Assembly (NCBI GenBank): GCA_944327845.1
Contig: CALVHN010000003.1
Coordinates: 1 to 64,000, forward strand
Origin: an uncultured Bacilli bacterium
Lineage (GTDB): Bacteria > Bacillota_I > Bacilli_A > RFN20 > CAG-826
DNA length: 64,000 nt
Reading direction: 5' to 3'
Below the pieces are notes generated by a model that was not told the origin of the DNA, did no database searches, and saw only the letters and a list, made by a program, of their open reading frames with translations. Below are positions 32,634-43,720 of this stretch, piece by piece. Each line of letters begins with the position of its first letter. Position 1 is the stretch's first letter. The position numbers were made by a program, and so were the translations under genes.

Positions 32634-33959
32634 ATGAAAGCAATAATTGAAGGTAAATGCGTTGATTATACACATGATGGACAAGGAGTAGTTAAGATAA
32701 ATAATCGTGTTGTTTTTGTTCCTTCATTATTAATTGGAGAAGTTGCTGAAATAGAAATTCTATATCGTAAAAAAGATTTTGATGTAGGTAAAATTAAAAA
32801 AATAATTAAATTTTCAGAAGATAGAATCACTCCCAAATGTCAATGTGCCACTGCTTGTGGTGGATGTTCTTTTCAAAATTTAAATTATAAAAAACAACTT
32901 GAATTAAAATATAATTTAGCTAAAGAAACTTTAAAAAGAATTGGTGGTATTGATTTACCAATTACTAAAATATATGGAATGGATGAGCCTTATTATTATC
33001 GTAATAAAATCCAAGTCCCATTTGGTTATGACAAACAAAAAAGATTAGTTTATGGTTTTTATAAATTTAAAAGTCATGACATAGTTCCTTTTAAAGAGTG
33101 TGTTATTCAAGATAAAGTTCATATAAATATACTCTCTACAATTAAAAAATTAATGTTTGATATGAATATTAAAGCATATAACGAAGATGATGGAAGTGGA
33201 GTATTAAGACATTGCTTAATTCGTGTTGCAAAAAAAACAAATCAAGTAATGGTTGTTTTAGTTGTGAAAAGTTTAAATTTTCCTTCTAAAAATAATTTTA
33301 TTAAAGCATTAATTAATGAGTGCAACGAAATTAATACCATTGTTTTAAATGAAAATCCCCGCAAAACTAATGTTATTTTAGGAAATAAGGAAAAAATAGT
33401 TTTTGGAAAAGGTTATATTATTGATGAATTATTAGGTATTAAATTTAAAATTTCTTCTAAATCTTTTTATCAAGTAAATCATTCTCAATGCGAAGTTTTG
33501 TATGATTTAGCTTTAAAAGAAGCTAATGTTAATTCTAATGACGTGATGTTAGATGCTTATTGTGGTATTGGCAGTATTGGTTTAATCTTTTCAAAATTTG
33601 TTAAATGTGTCGATGGCGTCGAAATAATTCCTAAAGCGATAAAGGATGCTAAAGAAAATATTAAGCTTAATAACATAACTAACGCACATTATTTTTGTAG
33701 CGACATAAACAATTTTGTTATAAATAAGCACTATGACCTTATGATAATTGATCCTCCAAGAAAAGGGATTGATGATAAATTCATGAATTCAATTTTAAAA
33801 TTAAAACCTACTAAAGTAGTATATATTTCTTGTAATGTTTCTACTTTAGCTAGAGATTTAAAGATTTTATCAAAATTATATAAAATTAAATCCATCAATT
33901 TGGTTGATATGTTCCCTCATACGTTTCATATTGAGAGTGTTGTTTCTCTTAGCTTATAG
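32634..33959 (+). CDS. rlmCD: 23S rRNA (uracil-C5)-methyltransferase, RlmD/RlmCD type
   Basis: This 441-aa TrmA-family enzyme methylates C5 of uridine in 23S rRNA. An N-terminal TRAM domain (about residues 1-55) precedes a cysteine cluster CQCATACGGC (about 74-83) that should bind an iron-sulfur cluster. The SAM domain shows DAYCGIGSIGL, then DPPRKGID and the catalytic ISCNVSTLARD. In Bacillus one such enzyme modifies both U747 and U1939; which positions are modified here cannot be told. It starts 1 bp after metG, so it is cotranscribed. The accessory island begins about 20 bp after its stop. Confidence 0.93.
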   Translation: MKAIIEGKCVDYTHDGQGVVKINNRVVFVPSLLIGEVAEIEILYRKKDFDVGKIKKIIKFSEDRITPKCQCATACGGCSFQNLNYKKQLELKYNLAKETLKRIGGIDLPITKIYGMDEPYYYRNKIQVPFGYDKQKRLVYGFYKFKSHDIVPFKECVIQDKVHINILSTIKKLMFDMNIKAYNEDDGSGVLRHCLIRVAKKTNQVMVVLVVKSLNFPSKNNFIKALINECNEINTIVLNENPRKTNVILGNKEKIVFGKGYIIDELLGIKFKISSKSFYQVNHSQCEVLYDLALKEANVNSNDVMLDAYCGIGSIGLIFSKFVKCVDGVEIIPKAIKDAKENIKLNNITNAHYFCSDINNFVINKHYDLMIIDPPRKGIDDKFMNSILKLKPTKVVYISCNVSTLARDLKILSKLYKIKSINLVDMFPHTFHIESVVSLSL

Positions 33960-34041
33960 TTATTATCCATTTTTGTTTTTTGTAATTGTTCAGACCAATA
34001 TATCTTGAATTGCACAAATTAATTTATAAAAAATAGAATCG

Positions 34042-34068
34042 CTGTCTTCGACGACAGTTTTTCTTTTT
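34042..34068 (+). terminator. Terminator at the left edge of the repeat
   Basis: CTGTC (34042-34046) pairs with GACAG (34053-34057), then TTTTTCTTTTT. The other repeat copy has the same hairpin with a 6-bp stem and a changed loop at 42933-42955. Here it may also serve to end the metG-rlmCD transcript. Confidence 0.7.
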
Positions 34069-34136
34069 ATGCCCCCGCATATAGTTTTCACCCTTCACCA
34101 TATTTTCATTACCCACACGCCTACACGAAAAAGAAA

Positions 34137-34163
34137 AAATATATATCTTTGTGATATATATTT
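34137..34163 (-). terminator. Terminator of the left repeat sORF
   Basis: Read leftward, an 11-bp perfect stem (34137-34147 with 34153-34163) is followed by a T-rich run. It lies 7 bases after the sORF stop codon. The same structure with a different loop sequence is present in the right copy. Confidence 0.8.
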
Positions 34164-34169
34164 AATTTC

Positions 34170-34301
34170 TTAGTTTTGATAGATGTGTAAGATGAAGATA
34201 TTAGAATCTGAGTATTGATTATAAATTGAGTCTAATTGATCTTCAGATAAGATCATGTAAATTACTTTTGTTGAAGTATAAATTACTGATTTAATCCGCA
34301 T
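34170..34301 (-). CDS. 43-aa repeat-encoded small protein (left copy)
   Basis: I translated this by hand: 43 aa, beginning MRIKSVIYTSTKV and ending FILHIYQN. A textbook AAAGGAGGA lies 6-7 bases before the ATG, and an intrinsic terminator follows the stop. The pattern of a beta strand (IKSVIYTSTKVIYMI), an acidic helix (SEDQLDSIYNQYS) and a second strand (NIFILHIY) suggests a tiny beta-alpha-beta fold without a membrane helix. The right repeat has the same ORF with 34 of 43 residues identical, no indels, and the same SD. A weak -10 (TATAGT) lies upstream. No function is recognised; toxin, antitoxin or element-borne regulator are all possible. Confidence 0.6.
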   Translation of the reverse strand: MRIKSVIYTSTKVIYMILSEDQLDSIYNQYSDSNIFILHIYQN

Positions 34302-34745
34302 GCGACTTCCTCCTTTAAAAAAGTTGTTGTACTATACAGTTCACACAGACCTTTTTTTCACACGCCAAAACTTTTATATACTTTGTATATAACTTTTTTC
34401 AAAAACTTTTTCCGTCGCTGTTGGACGCTGCCACAGCAAGCTTTAAACGACCGCTGTCAGACAAAACTACCACCTTAAGCAAATGTGTGTCGGGTCTCAA
34501 AACAGCTCCCAAAGCGCCCCGTTTCACAACAGCAAAAGAAAAGCTGAATTCGTCTACCCGCATACGCTTCAAAACTCGACATAATATTAATGAAGCAACT
34601 TGTGCAAAACTGAATGAATGGCTTTAAATAACGACATTATTTTTAATAAAAAATCTATATTTTCGAATAAAGACACGACCCATAAATACTACTTTTACTT
34701 AATAGAAATTTTATTTAGTAATTATACAAAGAGGATAGCCTATAT

Positions 34746-35170
34746 ATGGTTGTCAGTGGTAACATGTCTTTTATCTTTTTGTTGAAATGCAAAATGTGTT
34801 GTTTTATCATACAAGGATTTAAAGCGATACACTTTATGACAATAAATTCCAAATCGATGAGCCAAAAGTCCTCTCAGAAGCCAAAAAACAATATAAAAAT
34901 GATAATGACTGTCTTCAACAATTCATCAGTGAATGTTGTAAGAGAGAATCAACTGCTAAAGTAGGTGCTGGAGAGCTTTATGAAAAGTATCGAACCTATG
35001 CACGGAAGAGAAATGAATATGTTCGACAAGTACTGACTTTAAAAAAGCAATGGGAAACTGCTGGATTTATAAGCACTCATCCACACAACAAAACTTTCTA
35101 TCATGGCATTAGATTACTCACTAGTGCAGAGAACGACTTTGCTGTTCCTGAGGATGACTTTCTAAATTAA
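34746..35170 (+). pseudogene. Remnant of a phage/plasmid P4-type primase-helicase
   Basis: The frame from 34838 to the UAA at 35168-35170 encodes about 110 residues. They read like the C-terminal domain of P4/D5-family primase-helicases: NKFQIDEPKVLSEAKKQY, then QQFISECC, KVGAGELYEKYRTYAR, LKKQWETAGFI and FYHGIRLL. Upstream, that frame is closed by a stop at 34820. Family-like residues (FIIQGF) continue in another frame from 34746, so at least one frameshift is present, and the N-terminal primase and ATPase regions are missing. It marks the island as derived from an integrated phage, satellite or plasmid. Confidence 0.7.
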
Positions 35171-35558
35171 TAGGGTTAGGGGCTGTTAGGTTTCTATCCA
35201 CTAATCGTATAAGGAAATAAGTTTTTAATTGTCCTTATTACAATAGTGGTAGTCTGGGACCTAACGTGACCTAACCTTTTAATATTTATCCCCCCCGGTC
35301 TTGAAAATCTACTATCTTTGATAGTACCGTCGTCCCTACCTCAGAAATGTGCGGGACAGAATTTTTCAAAAAATAGATATTCCCTGGCCGTAAAATAGGA
35401 GGGGAGGTCAATATCTCTACAGCAGCATAGACGGACATCGGACCGGGGTTTCACGCGAAAAAATCGCGAAATCAAGAACGTAATAGGCTAACGCCAAACT
35501 ATGATATTACTTGAACAAAACAGGTTTTTGAATGATATGTGTTCAAGAGGAAATATTT
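35171..35558. other. Noncoding element-derived stretch with inverted repeats
   Basis: This 390-bp stretch has no convincing gene and is richer in G and C than its surroundings. It holds a spaced inverted repeat (35174-35191 and 35259-35276) built from paired CCTAAC units, a 7-bp hairpin TACTATC/GATAGTA (35310-35326), and a CGCGA/TCGCG hairpin (35454-35468). Such packed palindromes after a primase gene suggest replication or control sites of the former element. I see no promoter I can defend. Confidence 0.5.
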
Positions 35559-35801
35559 ATGAGAAAAGAAGATATTGAAACAGGCTTCATTGTAAAGGCA
35601 GTTTTTAGAAAATATGGCAATCATATTATTGTTGGCGAGGTAATAGAAATCTGCACTAATGAGCACGCTCTTGATGGCGATTGGGCCGGCATTAGAGTTA
35701 CTGGAGGAGACACTGAGGATAAACATGTTAGGTGGATGTTAAAAAAACGAATTTGTTCTTTAATTCCTTGTCGAGACATAAAAGAAATTGTTCATAAATA
35801 A
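35559..35801 (+). CDS. Hypothetical small protein upstream of the restriction operon
   Basis: This 80-aa soluble protein is of unknown function. It opens with MRKEDIETGFIVKAVFRKYGNHIIVGEVIEI, which looks like a small beta barrel, and contains the motif GDWAGIRVTGGD. I chose the ATG at 35559 because AGAGGAAA lies 6-10 bases upstream. A frame extending to 35532 would overlap that site. It sits 96 bp before the methyltransferase gene, with the probable operator between them, so it may be a control or accessory protein of the system. That is inference from position only. Confidence 0.55.
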   Translation: MRKEDIETGFIVKAVFRKYGNHIIVGEVIEICTNEHALDGDWAGIRVTGGDTEDKHVRWMLKKRICSLIPCRDIKEIVHK

Positions 35802-35897
35802 AAAAACTTAACAATAATAAATGTAATTTATAATTTTCCGGTTAGCATTTGTTAGTGCAAATATGGTTTTGAAAGTGATAGAATAGTGATACTGATT
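35802..35897 (+). promoter_or_regulatory. Promoter/operator region of the restriction operon
   Basis: The spacer contains a direct repeat GTGATA-n5-GTGATA (35874-35891), overlapping a TAGAAT -10-like box just before the methyltransferase ATG. It also contains TTAGCATTTG and TTAGTGCAAAT upstream. There is no SD. The first protein carries its own Xre-type HTH, so the repeats are candidate sites for autorepression. The exact promoter is uncertain. Confidence 0.4.
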
Positions 35898-38525
35898 ATG
35901 GATTACTCAAAGATTATTTATGAATTAAGACAAAGATTTTGTCTAACACAAAGCGAAATGGCAAATTTACTTGGTGTTGGTATTACTTCCATTTCGCGCT
36001 GGGAACAAGGTCATTTTGAACCTACAATGCAAATTAAGAAAAAAATCAAACAGATCATTGAAGAAAATCATTTATCAGAAAAAGAACTTGGGAATAGCAA
36101 CAACTCTTTTAATGCTCGTAATGAAAAAACATCTAAATCCAAAGGAGTCTCTCCAAGGACGTATATCAGTTTGTTTAGTAGCGCAGGTGTCGGTTGCTTT
36201 GGCTTTAAAAAAGCTGGCTTTCAATGTGTAGCAACAAATGAGCTATTGGAAAGAAGACTCAACATCCAAAGAATTAATAAAAAATGTAAATATGAGCATG
36301 GGTATATCGATGGCGATATAACTCAAGTTGAAAATCAAAAATTAATACTTAATGAAATTGAATTTTGGAAGAAAAACGAAAACGTTAACAAAATTGACGT
36401 TTTGATGGCGACCCCACCTTGTCAGGGCATGTCATCAGCAAATTATAAAAAAGGCGACGAAATCGATAGAAACTCTTTAGTTGTTGAAGCGATTCATTTA
36501 GTAAAAACGATACAACCACGTATTTTTGTTTTTGAGAATGTTAGGGCTTTTTTAACTACGATGTGTATTGACAAAGACAACGAAGCCCTTGTTATTTCAG
36601 AATGTATAGATAAAAATCTAAGCCAAGATTACAACATATTTAGAAGAGTCGTTAATTTTAGTGAGTTTGGCATACCATCAAGCAGACCAAGGACTCTAGT
36701 CATTGGAACATTGAAAACTGAGAGTAATTTCTCACCTTTGAATATTTTCCCATTGCGTTCAAAAACCGTTACTCTTAGAGAAGCTATTGGAGACCTTAGG
36801 TCTTTAGAATATGGTGATCGAGATCCTGATGATCTTTACCATTCTTTTAGAACCTATCCTAAATATATGCAGGATTGGATTCATGAATTAAAAGAAGGTG
36901 AAACTGCATTTAATAATTCTCCTGATAAAGTTCCTTATAAGTTTGTTAATGGTGAAAAGCAAACACTCAAATCCGGTTTTATGGGGAATAAGTTTTGCAG
37001 AATGTACTGGGACAAACCAGCTCCTTGCATTACCACACGTAACGACCAACTGGCAAGCCAGTCAACAATCCACCCTGTCGACGATAGAGTTTTATCCATT
37101 AGGGAACTTATGAGAGTAATGAGCATTCCTGAGGATTTTAAATGGACTTTCGCAGAAAATGCTGAAGATATCGATGATGCAGAAACCTTGATAAGACAAT
37201 CGATTGGAGAAGCTGTTCCAACAGGAATCATTCTTCAAATTGCAAACAACATAAACAAAATGTTGGATTATGACGAATTCATTAAAAACTACAGCAGTAA
37301 CACTGCTTATGCTGATAGTGATAATTTCTACATCAACGCCTTTTTATACGAAAAGAAATTAGCTGATGTAAATGAAACTGGATCTTTTTATACTCCACAA
37401 ATCGTTGTTTATAACACGATAAAAGACTACGTGCCTAAATCTGAAAATCAAAAGATTTTGGAGCCTGCAGTTGGTATGGGCGCTTTCATTCCTCAATTTT
37501 TGCGACTAATTGACACTTGCAAAAAAGTTGATATAGATCTTGTTGATATTTCTTACGGTTGCCTTTCTTTATTAAAGAAAGCGTTAACAAAATATAGCAC
37601 CAATAAAGCAGTCAAATTTAATTATATTAATGATGATTTTTTGACTCATAATTTTTCAGGAAAATATGATTGTATAATAACTAATCCACCTTATTTTAAG
37701 ATGAATGCCCTACTCAAGAAAAAATATAGTGACTATTCATTCTTGAATACAGATAACATCTATTGTCTTTTTATGCACAAGTATTCCCTTCTTTCTGATG
37801 AAATAATGTGCGTAATTCCAAAGACATTTATCATGATTCCTGATGCGAATGAAATAAGGCTTGAATATCAAAACAGCTATTATGTCTCCTCGATTTATGA
37901 TTACGGAGTCAAATTATTCAAAGAGGTTTTTATTGAAATTTTATCTATCTCTTTTTCAAAAACTAAAACAGAAACAACTTATGTAGAAAACCGCTCATTT
38001 AATATTTTTAGATATTTAAAACACGGATATATATTTCACGATAAAATGTGGCTAATATATCGAGATGAATGGTTTGATGAGTATATTAAAAAGCTAAAAC
38101 TTGACTGTTTTGATTTTTTCAGGGATAGACAACTAACAAACAAATATCTAAAGAACTCTGGCAAAATATGGGTTTTGCGCTCTAAGAATCTTCTTGATGA
38201 TGGGACCTTTATTCACAAAAGTGGTTATGACAAATATGTCGATTCTCTCGATGGATTCCAACTCTCAAAATATTACGGGAAAGAGAACTATGTGTTTATA
38301 AACTTTACATATAACACTAGAGGGGCGGTCTTACCTAAAAATTGCACAGTTAATGGTTCATTTTGTATCCTTTTACCTAAACAGAAAGATTTAAAAATTA
38401 ATCTGTCACTTTATGCAACCGAAGATTTTAGAAGATATTATGCTATTGTTAAGAATTTATCAAAATTTACGATTAATGTTGATAGCAATTCAATATATTA
38501 TATAGGAGTAGAGAATTATGATTAA
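35898..38525 (+). CDS. HTH / C5-cytosine / N6-adenine DNA methyltransferase fusion
   Basis: This 875-aa protein joins three parts. Residues 1-55 are an Xre-type HTH (FCLTQSEMANLLGVGITSISRWEQG). About 85-460 is a C5-cytosine methyltransferase with SAM loop SLFSSAGVGCFGF, catalytic PPCQGMSS, FENVR, RPRTLVIG and SIRELMRVMSIPEDF. About 490-670 is an N6-adenine methyltransferase of Eco57I/type I-like form with FYTPQIV, LEPAVGMGAF and NPPY; its recognition region follows. Both catalytic sites look intact. It should protect host DNA on two bases or both strands of an asymmetric site and may repress its own promoter. I chose the ATG at 35898, although GTG at 35886 is possible. It overlaps mcrB by 8 bp. 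Confidence 0.88.
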   Translation: MDYSKIIYELRQRFCLTQSEMANLLGVGITSISRWEQGHFEPTMQIKKKIKQIIEENHLSEKELGNSNNSFNARNEKTSKSKGVSPRTYISLFSSAGVGCFGFKKAGFQCVATNELLERRLNIQRINKKCKYEHGYIDGDITQVENQKLILNEIEFWKKNENVNKIDVLMATPPCQGMSSANYKKGDEIDRNSLVVEAIHLVKTIQPRIFVFENVRAFLTTMCIDKDNEALVISECIDKNLSQDYNIFRRVVNFSEFGIPSSRPRTLVIGTLKTESNFSPLNIFPLRSKTVTLREAIGDLRSLEYGDRDPDDLYHSFRTYPKYMQDWIHELKEGETAFNNSPDKVPYKFVNGEKQTLKSGFMGNKFCRMYWDKPAPCITTRNDQLASQSTIHPVDDRVLSIRELMRVMSIPEDFKWTFAENAEDIDDAETLIRQSIGEAVPTGIILQIANNINKMLDYDEFIKNYSSNTAYADSDNFYINAFLYEKKLADVNETGSFYTPQIVVYNTIKDYVPKSENQKILEPAVGMGAFIPQFLRLIDTCKKVDIDLVDISYGCLSLLKKALTKYSTNKAVKFNYINDDFLTHNFSGKYDCIITNPPYFKMNALLKKKYSDYSFLNTDNIYCLFMHKYSLLSDEIMCVIPKTFIMIPDANEIRLEYQNSYYVSSIYDYGVKLFKEVFIEILSISFSKTKTETTYVENRSFNIFRYLKHGYIFHDKMWLIYRDEWFDEYIKKLKLDCFDFFRDRQLTNKYLKNSGKIWVLRSKNLLDDGTFIHKSGYDKYVDSLDGFQLSKYYGKENYVFINFTYNTRGAVLPKNCTVNGSFCILLPKQKDLKINLSLYATEDFRRYYAIVKNLSKFTINVDSNSIYYIGVENYD

Positions 38526-40185
38526 AAAATTGCTTAAAAAACTAAATTCAGTTTCAATGAAGAGTGGTCGCTTTTTTGCTGATAAGAGCTATAAGTACGA
38601 TACTATCTTTTTCGGGGCGAAATTCATCCTAGAACTAGATGATGGGTCTCACCAAATTGATTTAAACACTAAACAGTCTGAACTCGTCGATAAGTTTGTT
38701 GAGGCATTTACATTAGATCCAAATTCTGCAGATGCAAATAGAAACTATGTGCTAGAGTCATTTGCTTTCTTCGAATATATAGGCGCAATCAGAAAAGTTG
38801 GCCAAAAGCTATATCACATTACTGATATTGAAATGTTGGAATACGCCACAGTCTCAATTGAAAATGCGTACATCCTTCAGTACCTAACAGCTTATAAAAC
38901 TTTCCTCAATGATGATATTTGGGATAAATATGTAGAATATGCTAATGATCATAATCTTTCTACTAAGTCGAGCAAATTAATCTCCTTAGCAGATACCATT
39001 AAAGAGTGTGCTCATAGTGTCGGAGAGAATCAAGATACCTCTTGGGCAAACAATTTTGTTAAATTTCAAATCTGCGTTTTAGCTTTGGCTAACGAAGACA
39101 ATTATATTTCTAGAACTTTGAATATTTCAGATTCTATAATTACTCCGCAACAGTTGTCTGCAAATGTTGAAGGAACACGATCCACATCAACAAAAAATAA
39201 TTTCTATATCCATGACTTTAGAATGTCTTATGTTTTGAATACTCTACAGCCTTATTTGGCGAGTGTTAAAAAAGAAGCGTTTTTGCCTTCCTTCGATAAA
39301 AGGACTTATAAAGAGTATCCGTTGAACTTTATTTTGTATGGTGCCCCAGGAACAGGAAAGACTTTTTCTACAGTAGAATATGCAGTCTCAATTATTGAGA
39401 AAAAACCAATCGACGCTATTAAAGTCAAATATGAAAACAGGCAAGGCATAAAAAAAGTCTATGACAAATATTTGAAAGCTGGGCGAGTGGTCTTCACCAC
39501 ATTCCACCAGAATTATAGCTATGAAGATTTTATTGAGGGACTAAGGCCAGATTCTAATTCCAATAAATTTAAATTTAAAGCAGTCCCTGGTGTATTTAAG
39601 AGAATAGTGGCAAGCGCTTTAGAAGATAAAAATAACAATTATGTTCTCGTTATTGATGAAATCAACAGAGCAAACATTTCTAGAGTGCTTGGTGAATTGA
39701 TAACGCTTTTGGAAGATGATAAACGCTGGGGTGAAGAGAACCAGATGATGGTTGTTCTACCTACCTCTAAAGATGTTTTTGTTGTTCCGAACAACCTATT
39801 TATCATTGGAACAATGAATACTGCTGACAAGTCAATTTCTATGATTGACGTGGCTTTGAGGAGAAGATTCTCTTTTATTGAGACTCCTGTGGATTTTTCC
39901 TTGATTAGCAACAACGCGTTAAGGGGAGTGCTTGAAAAAATAAACGATGGCCTTCAAAAAGACTTTGGTGATGGAACAGACTTGCTTGTTGGTCACGCGT
40001 ATTTCATTAATAAAAATGAAAACGATCTCGATCTCATTATGAACCAATCTGTTATTCCTCTATTGTATGAATATTATTTTGATAAGACATCAAAGGTCAA
40101 ATCTTTGGTAGAGACATCCCTTGCTGGAACCAATTTTGAAATTGATGGTTCCGCAACAGGACGTTTGAGAATTAAAAGAAAATAG
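38518..40185 (+). CDS. mcrB: McrB-like GTPase/AAA+ restriction subunit
   Basis: This 555-aa protein has an N-terminal region of about 240 residues, presumably for DNA binding. The McrB-type AAA+ domain has Walker A GAPGTGKTF near residues 278-286, Walker B VIDEINRANISRVLGEL near 375-391, the family signature TMNTADKS near 430, and the arginine-finger-like ALRRRFSF. McrB hexamers hydrolyse GTP and translocate DNA, recruiting McrC to cut. In methyltransferase-linked systems such as LlaJI and BsuMI the McrB-like subunit recognises the unmethylated site; the operon context supports this reading. It overlaps the methyltransferase gene and lies 8 bp before mcrC. Confidence 0.9.
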   Translation: MIKKLLKKLNSVSMKSGRFFADKSYKYDTIFFGAKFILELDDGSHQIDLNTKQSELVDKFVEAFTLDPNSADANRNYVLESFAFFEYIGAIRKVGQKLYHITDIEMLEYATVSIENAYILQYLTAYKTFLNDDIWDKYVEYANDHNLSTKSSKLISLADTIKECAHSVGENQDTSWANNFVKFQICVLALANEDNYISRTLNISDSIITPQQLSANVEGTRSTSTKNNFYIHDFRMSYVLNTLQPYLASVKKEAFLPSFDKRTYKEYPLNFILYGAPGTGKTFSTVEYAVSIIEKKPIDAIKVKYENRQGIKKVYDKYLKAGRVVFTTFHQNYSYEDFIEGLRPDSNSNKFKFKAVPGVFKRIVASALEDKNNNYVLVIDEINRANISRVLGELITLLEDDKRWGEENQMMVVLPTSKDVFVVPNNLFIIGTMNTADKSISMIDVALRRRFSFIETPVDFSLISNNALRGVLEKINDGLQKDFGDGTDLLVGHAYFINKNENDLDLIMNQSVIPLLYEYYFDKTSKVKSLVETSLAGTNFEIDGSATGRLRIKRK

Positions 40186-40193
40186 ATCCTTAT

Positions 40194-41591
40194 ATGCAGC
40201 CATTTTGTTACTACGAAGAAACAGAAATAAGAAAACATGATTTACCTGAATCGTGGAAAGACGAAAGTGTCCAGGAGAACTTAAAAGATTTTTTACAAGA
40301 AAACTGGAACCAGAGAAAAAGCTTTTATGATGACGGAGACAACAACTCAAATCAACAATTTTTAACTTTCTTAAATTTTGGAAGCATTAGGACTAATGAG
40401 TATGTTGGGACGATTGTTTTTAACGGAGAACAAGTTAATATCTTCCCAAAGGTTTTTGAGACAAAAAATAGTTCCAACAGTATAGATCATCTAATGTCAA
40501 ACTTAGTCCAGTGGTTGGACTATTGTTCTAAGCTAGATTTTCCTTTTGTTTCAATTAAAAGTGATTTAACCGGTATTGATAATTTTAAAGAACTGTTCAT
40601 TACACTGTTTGCAAAAAAACTGTCGCAGGTATTAGAACACGGCTCATATTATAAATATGAAGATGTTGTTGAAGACCTTAGAGTAATAAAAGGTAGATTA
40701 GACATCAACGATTATATTTCAAGAAAAATACCAAATGGTCAGTATGATGTTTTCAGATGTGAATTTTTTACATTCGAGTATGATAATTTGTTCAATCGCA
40801 TCATCAAATATGTGTGTAGAAAGCTTTTTAATCAAACCAGACCGGTAAATCAAAAAATATTTAGAAACGTTATCCTCAGAATGTCTGATGTTTCAGATGT
40901 CGTATGTATTGCAAGAGACTGTGAAAAAGTAACTTTAAATAGAATGCAAAGTGAGTATCGCAGCATTCTGTCTCTTTGTAAGATCTTCCTACTAAATGAT
41001 TTGCCTGGATATATGATGGATACAAACGATTCATTCTGTTTCTTGTTTCCAATGCCTTTGCTTTTTGAAGGATTCATTGGAGGATTCCTTAAATCTATCC
41101 TAGATGGTAAGGGCAGAGTTGAATTGCAAAAGAGTGATCAACCGCTTATTAACGACATTATATATGCTGGAAAATCATACGGTCCTGCTTTTATGATGCG
41201 TCACGATATACTTTGCACGATAGAAGATAAAGTATTTTTGATGGATACAAAGTATAAGAAAATACAAAGATTCGAGGATACAAAAGAAGATGAAACTCTT
41301 TGGAAAATGCAATTGATTCGAGGCGTTAACCAACAAGATTTGTATCAGGTTTCTACATATGCGGCAAAAAGAAATCTAAAAAAAGCCTATATCTTATATC
41401 CTTTGTTAAGATTTGAAGACGTAGAAAGCGATATGCCAATTTTACAAGAGCTAATACTCACAGGAAATTCATCTCTCGACGATATTAAATTTGTAGATGT
41501 TGTTTTAGTTAGAGTTCCATTTGTTTTTGAAGATGATATAGAAAAAACTAAAGAAGCTCTCACAAAAACGTTATTAAAGATATTTGAATAA
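40194..41591 (+). CDS. mcrC: McrC-like nuclease subunit
   Basis: This 465-aa protein has the McrC layout. A beta-rich N-terminal region (about 1-120, with NFGSIRTNEYVGTIVFNGEQ) contacts McrB. A helical middle follows. The C-terminal PD-(D/E)xK nuclease domain has RHDILCTIEDKVFLMDTKYKKI near residues 338-360, where the Asp and DxK pair are the catalytic residues. It forms the cleavage subunit of the McrBC-type complex. It lies between mcrB and the DUF2971 gene with gaps of 8 and 2 bp. Confidence 0.9.
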   Translation: MQPFCYYEETEIRKHDLPESWKDESVQENLKDFLQENWNQRKSFYDDGDNNSNQQFLTFLNFGSIRTNEYVGTIVFNGEQVNIFPKVFETKNSSNSIDHLMSNLVQWLDYCSKLDFPFVSIKSDLTGIDNFKELFITLFAKKLSQVLEHGSYYKYEDVVEDLRVIKGRLDINDYISRKIPNGQYDVFRCEFFTFEYDNLFNRIIKYVCRKLFNQTRPVNQKIFRNVILRMSDVSDVVCIARDCEKVTLNRMQSEYRSILSLCKIFLLNDLPGYMMDTNDSFCFLFPMPLLFEGFIGGFLKSILDGKGRVELQKSDQPLINDIIYAGKSYGPAFMMRHDILCTIEDKVFLMDTKYKKIQRFEDTKEDETLWKMQLIRGVNQQDLYQVSTYAAKRNLKKAYILYPLLRFEDVESDMPILQELILTGNSSLDDIKFVDVVLVRVPFVFEDDIEKTKEALTKTLLKIFE

Positions 41592-41593
41592 GA

Positions 41594-42628
41594 ATGAACA
41601 ACAAGGAAAAGCGAAAGTACATGTCAGATTTGTTGATCTTTCAATCAACGCCTTTTATGTCTGAATTTGAAACAAGGAAAGATTTTTTAAAAAAGACTCC
41701 TATTATCCTATATAAGTATAGAGCGTTTGATAAATATGCTTTCGAAATGATTGATGATGGATATGTATACTTGGCCCCAGTCAAAGGACTCGATGACCCG
41801 TTTGATTGTCTTAACGATTTCACAATAAATGATTTTTATAACGAAAAGACTCATAAGATTACCCCTAAAGCGGTTGATTTCATAATTAAGTTTGCTCGCA
41901 CTAAAGGTATTCAAAATTTGTCGGCAAAAGACGTTAAAAAGTTTGCGCTCCAGTGCATAAAAGAAGACGGCATAGATTATGATAAAGTTCCTAAGATTGT
42001 CACCTCTAACGGAGTTCTGACCAGAACAGAGGTTGAACCGTTATTTGTTGTCCTCAATACCTTTAACGAAAACTTTGAAAAGGTAATTGAAAGCGCAATG
42101 CTTGATGGTTTTGTAAAGAGTGCCATGTCTCCTGGTGATAGGGTAGGTATCTGCTCATTTTCAGAAAAAAGAGACAACAAAGTCATGTGGTCCTTATACG
42201 GAAAGAACTATGAGGGTTACTGTATTGAGTATGATATCCCTAAAAGACAAGAGATCACTCCAAATCTTTACCCAGTAATTTATACAAAAAGAAACAACAA
42301 CAGATTTATTGAAAAAATGATTGAATACGCTATGAGTGCATTCATGCGAGCTGTTACTGATGGCCACCTCAACGGAAACATCGGTGCTTCAATGGAATTA
42401 TTCTGCACAAAAGATACTGATTGGTCATATCAAGCAGAATGGCGTTTAATTGATAATGCAGATGGCAAATGTGGATTCTTGAATATCAAAGCAATTTATC
42501 TTGGGTTCAAAGTCAAAAAGTCAAATGAAAATAAAATGAAAAAGCTGGCGAAGGAAAAAGGATTTAACTTGTTTAAAATGAATCCACCAAACGGAAAAAA
42601 GAAAATCACTTACACCAAAATCGTATGA
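41594..42628 (+). CDS. DUF2971 family protein
   Basis: This 344-aa cytosolic protein matches the DUF2971 pattern: YKYRAFDKYAFEMIDDGYVYLAPVKGLDDPFDCLND near the N terminus, a central ICSFSEKRDNKVMWSLYGKNYEGYCIEYD, and a late WSYQAEWRLI. DUF2971 has no assigned biochemical activity. Members often sit in phage-defence or mobile islands. Its start is only 2 bp after mcrC, and a terminator follows its stop, so it is a true member of this operon. It may be an effector, sensor or accessory factor. It ends with UGA, showing UGA is a stop codon here. Confidence 0.8.
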   Translation: MNNKEKRKYMSDLLIFQSTPFMSEFETRKDFLKKTPIILYKYRAFDKYAFEMIDDGYVYLAPVKGLDDPFDCLNDFTINDFYNEKTHKITPKAVDFIIKFARTKGIQNLSAKDVKKFALQCIKEDGIDYDKVPKIVTSNGVLTRTEVEPLFVVLNTFNENFEKVIESAMLDGFVKSAMSPGDRVGICSFSEKRDNKVMWSLYGKNYEGYCIEYDIPKRQEITPNLYPVIYTKRNNNRFIEKMIEYAMSAFMRAVTDGHLNGNIGASMELFCTKDTDWSYQAEWRLIDNADGKCGFLNIKAIYLGFKVKKSNENKMKKLAKEKGFNLFKMNPPNGKKKITYTKIV

Positions 42629-42652: not shown

Positions 42653-42869
42653 TGACATCGGCGCGATATGTTTTAAGGTCAAAATGCCACTTTTATATAA
42701 TACAATGCATTATATAAGTCCAAGGCCTTACACCCCGTATCAGAGAATATTTCAATTAAACACATGGTACCGGAATAGCCTCTACGTGTACGCTCATTGT
42801 AGCACTCCCGCGTAGCAAGGCACGTGGAAACAATCGTTAGCTTGATTTTAAAGAAATAAAACTTATTTA
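42653..42869. other. Noncoding spacer with a palindrome
   Basis: There is no gene here. The only structure I see is a perfect 9-bp inverted repeat TTATATAAT/ATTATATAA (42693-42717) with a 7-base loop. The rest is mixed-composition sequence with GC-rich patches (around 42770-42840), unlike the flanking chromosome, which suggests element-derived DNA. Confidence 0.4.
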
Positions 42870-42932
42870 TTTGTAATTGTTCAGACCAACTTATCTTGAA
42901 TTGTGCAAATCAATTTATAAAAGAATAGAATC

Positions 42933-42955
42933 GCTGTCTTAGATGACAGCTTTTT
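42933..42955 (+). terminator. Terminator at the left edge of the right repeat
   Basis: GCTGTC (42933-42938) pairs with GACAGC (42945-42950), followed by TTTTT. It is homologous to 34042-34068, with a changed loop and an intact stem. Confidence 0.7.
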
Positions 42956-43029
42956 ATGCCCCTGCCTGCATATAGTTTCCGCCTTTCACCATATTTTCAT
43001 TGCCCACACGCCTACACAAAAAAAAGAAA

Positions 43030-43056
43030 AAATATATATCTTTCTGATATATATTT
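43030..43056 (-). terminator. Terminator of the right repeat sORF
   Basis: An 11-bp perfect stem (43030-43040 with 43046-43056) is followed leftward by a T-rich run. It lies 6 bases after the sORF stop. Confidence 0.8.
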
Positions 43057-43062
43057 AATTTC

Positions 43063-43194
43063 TTAGTTTTGATAGATGTTTAAGATGAAGATACTAGAAT
43101 TTGAATATTGATTATAAATTGAATCTAATTCATCTTCAGATACGATCACGTAAATTACTTTTGTTGAAGTATAAATTATTAATTTAAACCGCAT
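43063..43194 (-). CDS. 43-aa repeat-encoded small protein (right copy)
   Basis: This is the homologue of the ORF at 34170-34301, beginning MRFKLIIYTSTKV and ending FILNIYQN. It has the same length and stop position, and an AAAGGAGGG ribosome site 6-7 bases before the ATG. Nine of 43 residues differ from the left copy, mostly conservatively. Eleven nucleotides differ in all, nine of them changing an amino acid, so the frame is preserved but strong purifying selection is not shown. No function is recognised. Confidence 0.6.
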   Translation of the reverse strand: MRFKLIIYTSTKVIYVIVSEDELDSIYNQYSNSSIFILNIYQN

Positions 43195-43515
43195 GCGACT
43201 CCCTCCTTTAAAAAAGTTGTTGTACTATACAGTATGACCAGACCTTTTTTTCACATGCCAAAACTTTTATATACTTTGTATATAACTTTTTTCAAAAACT
43301 TTTTCCGTCGCTGTTGGACGCTGCCGCAGCAAGCTTTAAATGACCGCTGTCAGACGAAAGCTACCGACCTAAGCAAAATGCCTGCCGCTCCCCATGCGCC
43401 CGTTTTCAAACTACTCAAAATTGCTAAAGTGGGGGCTCGCAAACGCATCCGACCACGACATAATATTTATGAAGCAACTTGTGCAAAACAGAATGAGTGG
43501 CTTTAGATAACGACA

Positions 43516-43720
43516 GTTTTGTATTAATTTTTAAAACTAATAATATTTGAAACTGAAAAAATATTTTTGCTTTGAAAAAATTTTTACCATAAAAGTGATA
43601 AAATAAAACAAAAAACCTACTAAACACTATTATTTTTTGATTTTTCTCATAATTTTAATAAACTATTTTTTTAAATTAAATAAGCCTTATTTTAAAAAAT
43701 AAGTTATCATAAATAAGATT
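43516..43720. other. AT-rich spacer before the 518-aa gene
   Basis: This 205-bp AT-rich stretch has no coding potential I can support. A TATCAT box (43705-43710) lies 10 bases before the ATG at 43721 and may be its -10 element. No SD is present. Confidence 0.4.

Follow-up and report, generated by a model that had tools for sequence, protein, structure and literature searches.

Tn7 and its relatives are characterized by TGT/ACA ends, arrays of TnsB sites and a 5-bp duplication (PMC11406308). The site recognised by TnsD spans 36 bp within the 3' end of glmS, and insertion takes place ~25 bp beyond it (PMC2918618). Defence genes are well known as cargo of Tn7-like elements (PMC8649781). We have analysed a 64,000-nt window (the whole stretch of DNA examined) of an uncultured Bacilli genome in which a short repeated unit shows many of these features. 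Like Tn7 and the Tn7-like elements (attTn7 at glmS, and the tRNA-targeting TnsD/TniQ types), the unit has TGT/ACA ends, arrays of ~20-bp sites and a 5-bp TSD, and it is found in a fixed orientation and at a fixed distance behind the 3' end of a conserved gene or a tRNA gene, together with defence cargo; the layout closely resembles that of Tn7. It is unlike Tn7 in that neither the element nor the window genome contains tnsA, tnsB, tnsC or tniQ, and in its 650-bp minimal form, its occurrence as paired units and its built-in mimic of rlmD, a gene that is not named as an attachment site in the two Tn7-like surveys that we searched. TGT/ACA ends are also present in IS481-type elements, which counts against a Tn7 reading.

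Three other groups of elements are relevant for comparison. MITE-type and other non-autonomous elements, which are presumably moved in trans, resemble the unit in being short, in having terminal inverted repeats and in lacking a transposase, but the unit carries a conserved protein gene, uses fixed sites, is present in two copies per genome and brackets cargo. The unit end (TGTCGTT...) resembles the IR of the Tn5053/Tn402 family, a lead only, and this family shares the 5-bp TSD class, although the unit lacks tniABQR and is not targeted to resolution sites. Finally, the streptococcal ICEs that target rumA/rlmD use the 3' end of the same host gene and are integrase elements, whereas the unit has no integrase and its 5-bp duplications differ by site.

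Ends and insertion sites of the unit

The first-pass annotation of this DNA had seen the repeat only as the carrier of a 43-aa ORF, a description that now gives way to that of a putative Tn7-like element that sits behind rlmD and whose copies enclose defence genes. The repeat is a sharply bounded unit of ~650 bp with TGT...ACA terminal inverted repeats, and its boundaries are common to related copies. The window contains two of them, R1 (33981-34636, minus strand; LE at 33981, RE end at 34636, end scores 53.1 and 49.2) and R2 (42872-43515, minus strand), which has the same structure as judged by its boundaries and the end matrix. The unit runs from about -336 to +321 relative to the ATG, limits that were constant across genomes and positions, and its ends were identical in R1, R2, G086, G242, G246a and G246b (G numbers denote other genomes of the order, a and b two copies in one of them). 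The inverted-repeat ends begin with TGT (RE TGTCGTTATCTAAAGCCATTCATTCTGTTTTGCACAAG, LE TGTAATTGTTCAGACCAACTTATCTTGAATTGCACAAA). The LE terminal repeats are located at 33981-34022 (R1, the rlmD-proximal one) and 42872-42913 (R2), both on the plus strand, and the RE terminal inverted repeats at 34595-34636 (R1, TGTCGTTATTTAAAGCCATTCATTCAGTTTTGCACAAG...) and 43474-43515 (R2), both on the minus strand. The end matrix gave scores of 48-53 for these four ends and no more than 15.3 in three shuffled windows; as the matrix was built from these ends, high scores in the window were expected, and its value is in delimiting ends elsewhere. Arrays of ~20-22-bp putative transposase sites, as in Tn7-like elements, were found in the LE, which contains two ~20-bp sites at a lag of exactly 24 bp that match at 16/20 positions in the window (measured on the R2 LE), 17/20 in G201 and 19/20 in G190. 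They are also present, with 18/20, in the end of G203 on the tRNA side, and in each case 0 of 500 shuffles reached the observed match. None of the RE ends tested had a significant 24-bp-lag repeat. A terminator hairpin within the R1 LE (34041-34068, plus strand), detected by folding and by a terminator scan, faces rlmD.

Elements with these ends span 650-950 bp in their minimal form and contain only the 43-aa ORF; in the smallest element, that of G201 (~950 bp), this ORF is the sole gene seen. The ORF is missing from two others. In a second tandem element of G070 with the same ends (L023, 5249-7885), an MFS-like transporter gene and one for a 240-aa protein replace it, and in G008 (L119, C122, 201-3055) a 799-aa surface protein is encoded between an outward-facing RE and LE with CTAAG next to each of them, which makes an outside-in duplication. 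The RE tip of G070 has diverged. A divergent LE (TGTAAAAGCACAAG...) was also seen in G003 (L100, 241), 52 bp behind the rlmD HVE codons and near genes that look AbiE-like by eye, but a search for a matching RE found none. R1 and R2 are 85% identical at the DNA level, and R2 is 91% identical to the G246b unit although the RlmD proteins of the two hosts are only 42% identical, which points to horizontal transfer of the unit.

The putative target locus is an rlmD-type 23S rRNA methyltransferase gene (32634-33959, plus strand), which is found in metG-rlmD synteny in most congeners. The attachment site would be the 54 bp from the HIE codons at the 3' end of this gene to the insertion point (33927-33980, plus strand). 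At every rlmD site the att-side end is the LE, and it starts 51-54 bp on, counted from the first nucleotide of the HVE/HIE codons, in a set of placed copies that includes the LE-like ends of G003 and G005; the rlmD stop codon varies in position, at one extreme about 30 bp in and at the other within the element, while this spacing is maintained. A spacing of 51-52 bp is also found at four short mimics of the rlmD 3' end on the far side of an island (R2, G086, G242 and G246b). The window mimic (HVETIVSLILKK plus stop; 42821-42871, plus strand) is located 51 bp before R2, and motifs of its class (HVET.V.L...) occur only five times in the 128 kb of the window strands. In G190 and G203 it is a tRNA-Ala(CGC) gene that precedes the element, at a distance of 12-15 bp. 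The possibility that an 88-bp unit end is the native 3' UTR of rlmD was ruled out, as most congeners do not have the 88-bp sequence.

Exact 5-bp duplications flank the outermost ends in G201 (TTCTC), G246 (GCATT) and G190 (CCTGT), with a local chance of 0.0013-0.0021 for each of them. In the window the outer flanks, TTTTT on the left (33976-33980) and GTTTT on the right (43516-43520), match at 4/5 positions, and the inner flanks, right of R1 (34637-34641) and left of R2 (42867-42871), are both TTATT, all four being read on the plus strand. Inner flanks also match in G008 (CTAAG/CTAAG) and are mismatched in G246.

Paired units, defence cargo and mobility

R1 and R2 are in direct orientation and flank an island of MTase, McrBC and PDC-S31 genes, all on the plus strand, that encode an HTH, 5mC methylase and Eco57I-type methylase fusion (5mC/N6; 35886-38525), an McrB-like AAA protein (38518-40185), McrC (40194-41591; PF10117, 1.3e-59) and a DUF2971/PDC-S31 protein (41594-42628). 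According to PADLOC, defence cargo is present at five loci. In G013 the cargo at this rlmD site comprises an Mrr-like PDC-S02 and SoFic, and in G246, from another family, two units enclose PtuA/AriA-like and IetA-like genes, a methylase fragment and SoFic; in G086 and G242, whose contigs show a single unit each, this unit is adjoined by Ssp/Pbe phosphorothioation genes and a HEC-06 relative. The Fic cassettes of G013 and G246 are 98% identical and differ in order. Two further observations concern the DNA between R1 and the methylase gene. Inverted repeats (ggttagg.../...cctaacc) and unusual G+C-rich patches are found in the intergenic stretch 35160-35500, and an 89-aa ORF (35532-35801) lies before the methylase gene and has a 31%-identical relative adjoining the methylase fragment in G246; the ORF may be part of the methylase system.

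No transposase or recombinase was found among the ORFs of the window island, which has no tns/tni gene, and the window genome did not yield any gene of the TnsB, Mu or TniQ type. TniQ was detected in 0 of 220 genomes of the family and Mu-transpos_C in 1 of 195 genomes of the order, plus one decayed stretch, although the control genomes gave no match with either profile. The single Mu-transpos_C match, a Mu-type protein in G086, was discarded as a helper as its contig does not have the unit ends. With the rve profile, for which the controls were positive, the window genome gave only proteins that we judged from their sequences to be of IS3 type. An end motif scan of the retrieved loci found no autonomous parent with the same ends, and neither the unit nor the end patterns were found in phages, plasmids or viral contigs. 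Because the TnsB, TnsC and TniQ/TnsD proteins encoded by Tn7-like elements were not found in the island or the window genome, the unit is not an autonomous member of this group and could at most be a derivative of it, but the view that it behaves like a Tn7-like element is upheld.

Considering the ends, the sites and the duplications, the 43-aa gene is probably the cargo of a ~650-bp non-autonomous, trans-mobilised Tn7-like element. A TnsB-type transposase supplied in trans, from a plasmid or another cell lineage, would mobilise the unit, and a target selector reading the rlmD 3' end would be provided in the same way. The two direct units and the defence island between them would move as one via the outermost ends, for which the outer duplications of G246 and G190 speak. 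The matching inner flanks would be consistent with the fusion into the site of a donor circle carrying one unit, through either replicative cointegration or homologous recombination of two units; a cointegrate, or a circle whose unit has recombined into a resident unit, would leave duplications on both the outer and the inner side. As R1 and R2 are only 85% identical, this would not be a fresh cointegrate, and either the event took place long ago or the partners differed beforehand.

An alternative that needs no movement of the unit itself is that 650-bp repeats at a hotspot swap defence cassettes by homologous recombination. The repeats are indeed direct, the cargo between them differs in the window, G013 and G246, the nearly identical Fic cassette has been reordered, and no transposase was found. 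We consider this explanation improbable, because it leaves unexplained the 5-bp duplications of differing sequence, the TGT/ACA inverted repeats and the 24-bp-lag sites, as well as the fixed distance of 51-54 bp and the insertion at two unrelated genes. Homologous recombination between units may well act after insertion.

The 43-aa protein and its gene

The 43-aa ORF is present as copy 1 in R1 (34170-34301, stop codon included, minus strand; product MRIKSVIYTSTKVIYMILSEDQLDSIYNQYSDSNIFILHIYQN) and as copy 2 in R2 (43063-43194, minus strand), with 79% identity between the two proteins and homologs within the order. We found exactly two copies, and no third, in the 1.135-Mb window genome, each ORF being preceded by a strong SD (AAAGGAGG) 7 nt 5' of the ATG, in agreement with the first-pass annotation, whose count of nine amino acid changes from eleven nucleotide differences between the copies we also obtained. 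The 11-bp terminator that it described is correct as to structure, since a perfect 11-bp stem starts 6 nt past the stop and leads into a T-rich tail (hairpin and start of the tail at approximately 34133-34163 after copy 1, minus strand). This stem folds with -11.7 kcal/mol (z = -5.4 and -4.5 for the two copies) and is largely kept among copies while its 5-nt loop varies; but as it consists almost entirely of A-T pairs, it is no GC-rich terminator, and it was absent from the plain terminator-scan list. A dyad located 5' of the ORF (TTATATAC-AAA-GTATATAA; 34374-34392, minus strand) has kept its arms around a free centre, with a paired change in G075, and is possibly an operator or part of a promoter.

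A profile search revealed the family in 12 of the 279 genomes of the order, belonging to two families and six genera; the named carriers are uncultured gut and rumen Bacilli, including Candidatus Scatoplasma merdavium. Frameshifted or start-lost copies had been named beforehand as evidence against a real gene, and some copies of this kind do exist. Ten homologs are intact and align without internal gaps, so that the proposed constancy of length and frame holds for them, and at least three are broken, by a 1-nt deletion (G086), by a stop directly after the start (ATG-TGA, G070) or by a cut after codon 34 (G013b). The high-GC members G190, G201 and G203, in which silent sites are saturated, are still 40-48% identical to the window copy at the protein level, which indicates a similarity beyond chance. 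dN/dS was 0.07 for G201/G203 and 0.17 for both G190/G201 and G190/G203; among close copies it scattered from ~0.3 to 1.9, with one pair at 3.4, on only 5-12 differences each. Because ratios near 1 are confined to these very close copies, the suggestion that the ORF may be evolving fast is not supported. Judged by these substitution patterns, the ORF is the gene of a real protein family under long-term purifying selection, and such selection implies a function.

AlphaFold models of nine sequences (mean pLDDT 92.5; β2-8, β13-19, α20-29, β34-41) confidently predict a folded beta-beta-alpha-beta mini-protein, which replaces the beta-alpha-beta shape proposed before. No significant match was found for its sequence in Pfam, NCBIfam, PHROGs or PDB, nor for its fold (Foldseek) in PDB or the BFVD viral models, and phages, plasmids and IMG/VR gave no match to the family by tblastn, blastn or pattern. 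The weak similarities to phrog_2626 (best E 0.007) and DUF493 (E 0.11) were rejected, and matches in the class and phylum outside the order were short, partial and inside longer frames, so they were judged to be due to chance.

Concerning the role of the protein, the ORF runs from RE to LE in the window and from LE to RE in G190 and G201, and because its orientation relative to the ends flips, the gene must be cargo beside the ends and not part of them. Being the sole gene of the minimal element, with its own signals and under long-term selection, it could be thought to keep the island stable as a toxin or addiction gene. This seems unlikely: the protein has no membrane helix, no antitoxin partner was seen, the databases gave no match and broken copies are tolerated in G086 and G070. 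The short hydrophobic membrane helix and antisense RNA of type I toxins were not found, as the model is soluble and the locus has no Rfam match, and the earlier view that the protein does not look like such a toxin is maintained. Our best guess, still a tentative one, is that the protein is a small protein-binding inhibitor or regulator serving the element or the host. It is harder to credit a wider scheme in which site-targeted Tn7-type defence islands in this order of gut Bacilli are moved by an unrecognised transposase and selector, and the 43-aa protein is not cargo but a dedicated mobility accessory (e.g. for exclusion, end binding or as a selector co-factor).

The rlmD 3' end and implications

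Other congeners carry different genes downstream of rlmD, such as a serine-recombinase-like ORF with phage-like genes in G002 (L104, 3631-5226) and another apparent restriction system in G012 (L115, 1377-10694), and read from these sequences rlmD appears to be a general hotspot. An arm (GATAGCCTCTA, with GGTACCGxGATAGCCTCTA shared) is located ~50 bp before the rlmD mimic in the window (42773-42820), at L022 12222 and at L039 4237 (minus strand), and could be an att arm left by an earlier integrase element specific for rlmD. The whole island could even be taken for an integrase element of the serine or tyrosine type, inserted at the 3' end of rlmD and with the rlmD fragment before R2 as its attR, as streptococcal ICEs are known to use rumA/rlmD, G002 has its recombinase-like ORF and the arm before the fragment is common to R2, G086 and G242. 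This is very unlikely, since neither a recombinase gene nor an identical att core at both ends was found in the window island, the duplicated 5-mers vary by site and thus provide no common core, and the boundaries are marked by the unit ends and not by the rlmD fragment. A related guess, that this fragment is the displaced native end of rlmD, meets the same objection that no integrase was found. That the ORF is a by-product of a conserved RNA or transposon end is the least probable reading, for although dN/dS is near 1 in close copies, their leader is as conserved as the ORF and some elements lack the ORF (the second one of G070, G008), the protein identity of G190, G201 and G203 persists with saturated silent sites and differing flanks, the ORF points the other way with respect to the ends in G190 and G201, and its fold is confident.

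The preferred reading, a trans-mobilised Tn7-like unit, has several consequences. Tn7-like elements are normally found via their transposase genes, so that such searches would miss units without a transposase, and the defence islands that these border would look like plain hotspots. The 43-aa family adds a new small protein with a confidently predicted fold. If the reading is true, the rlmD 3' end would join the list of Tn7 attachment sites, a single family of ends would use a protein gene as well as a tRNA gene as its site, and it would become possible to delimit and predict defence islands in poorly studied gut Bacilli.
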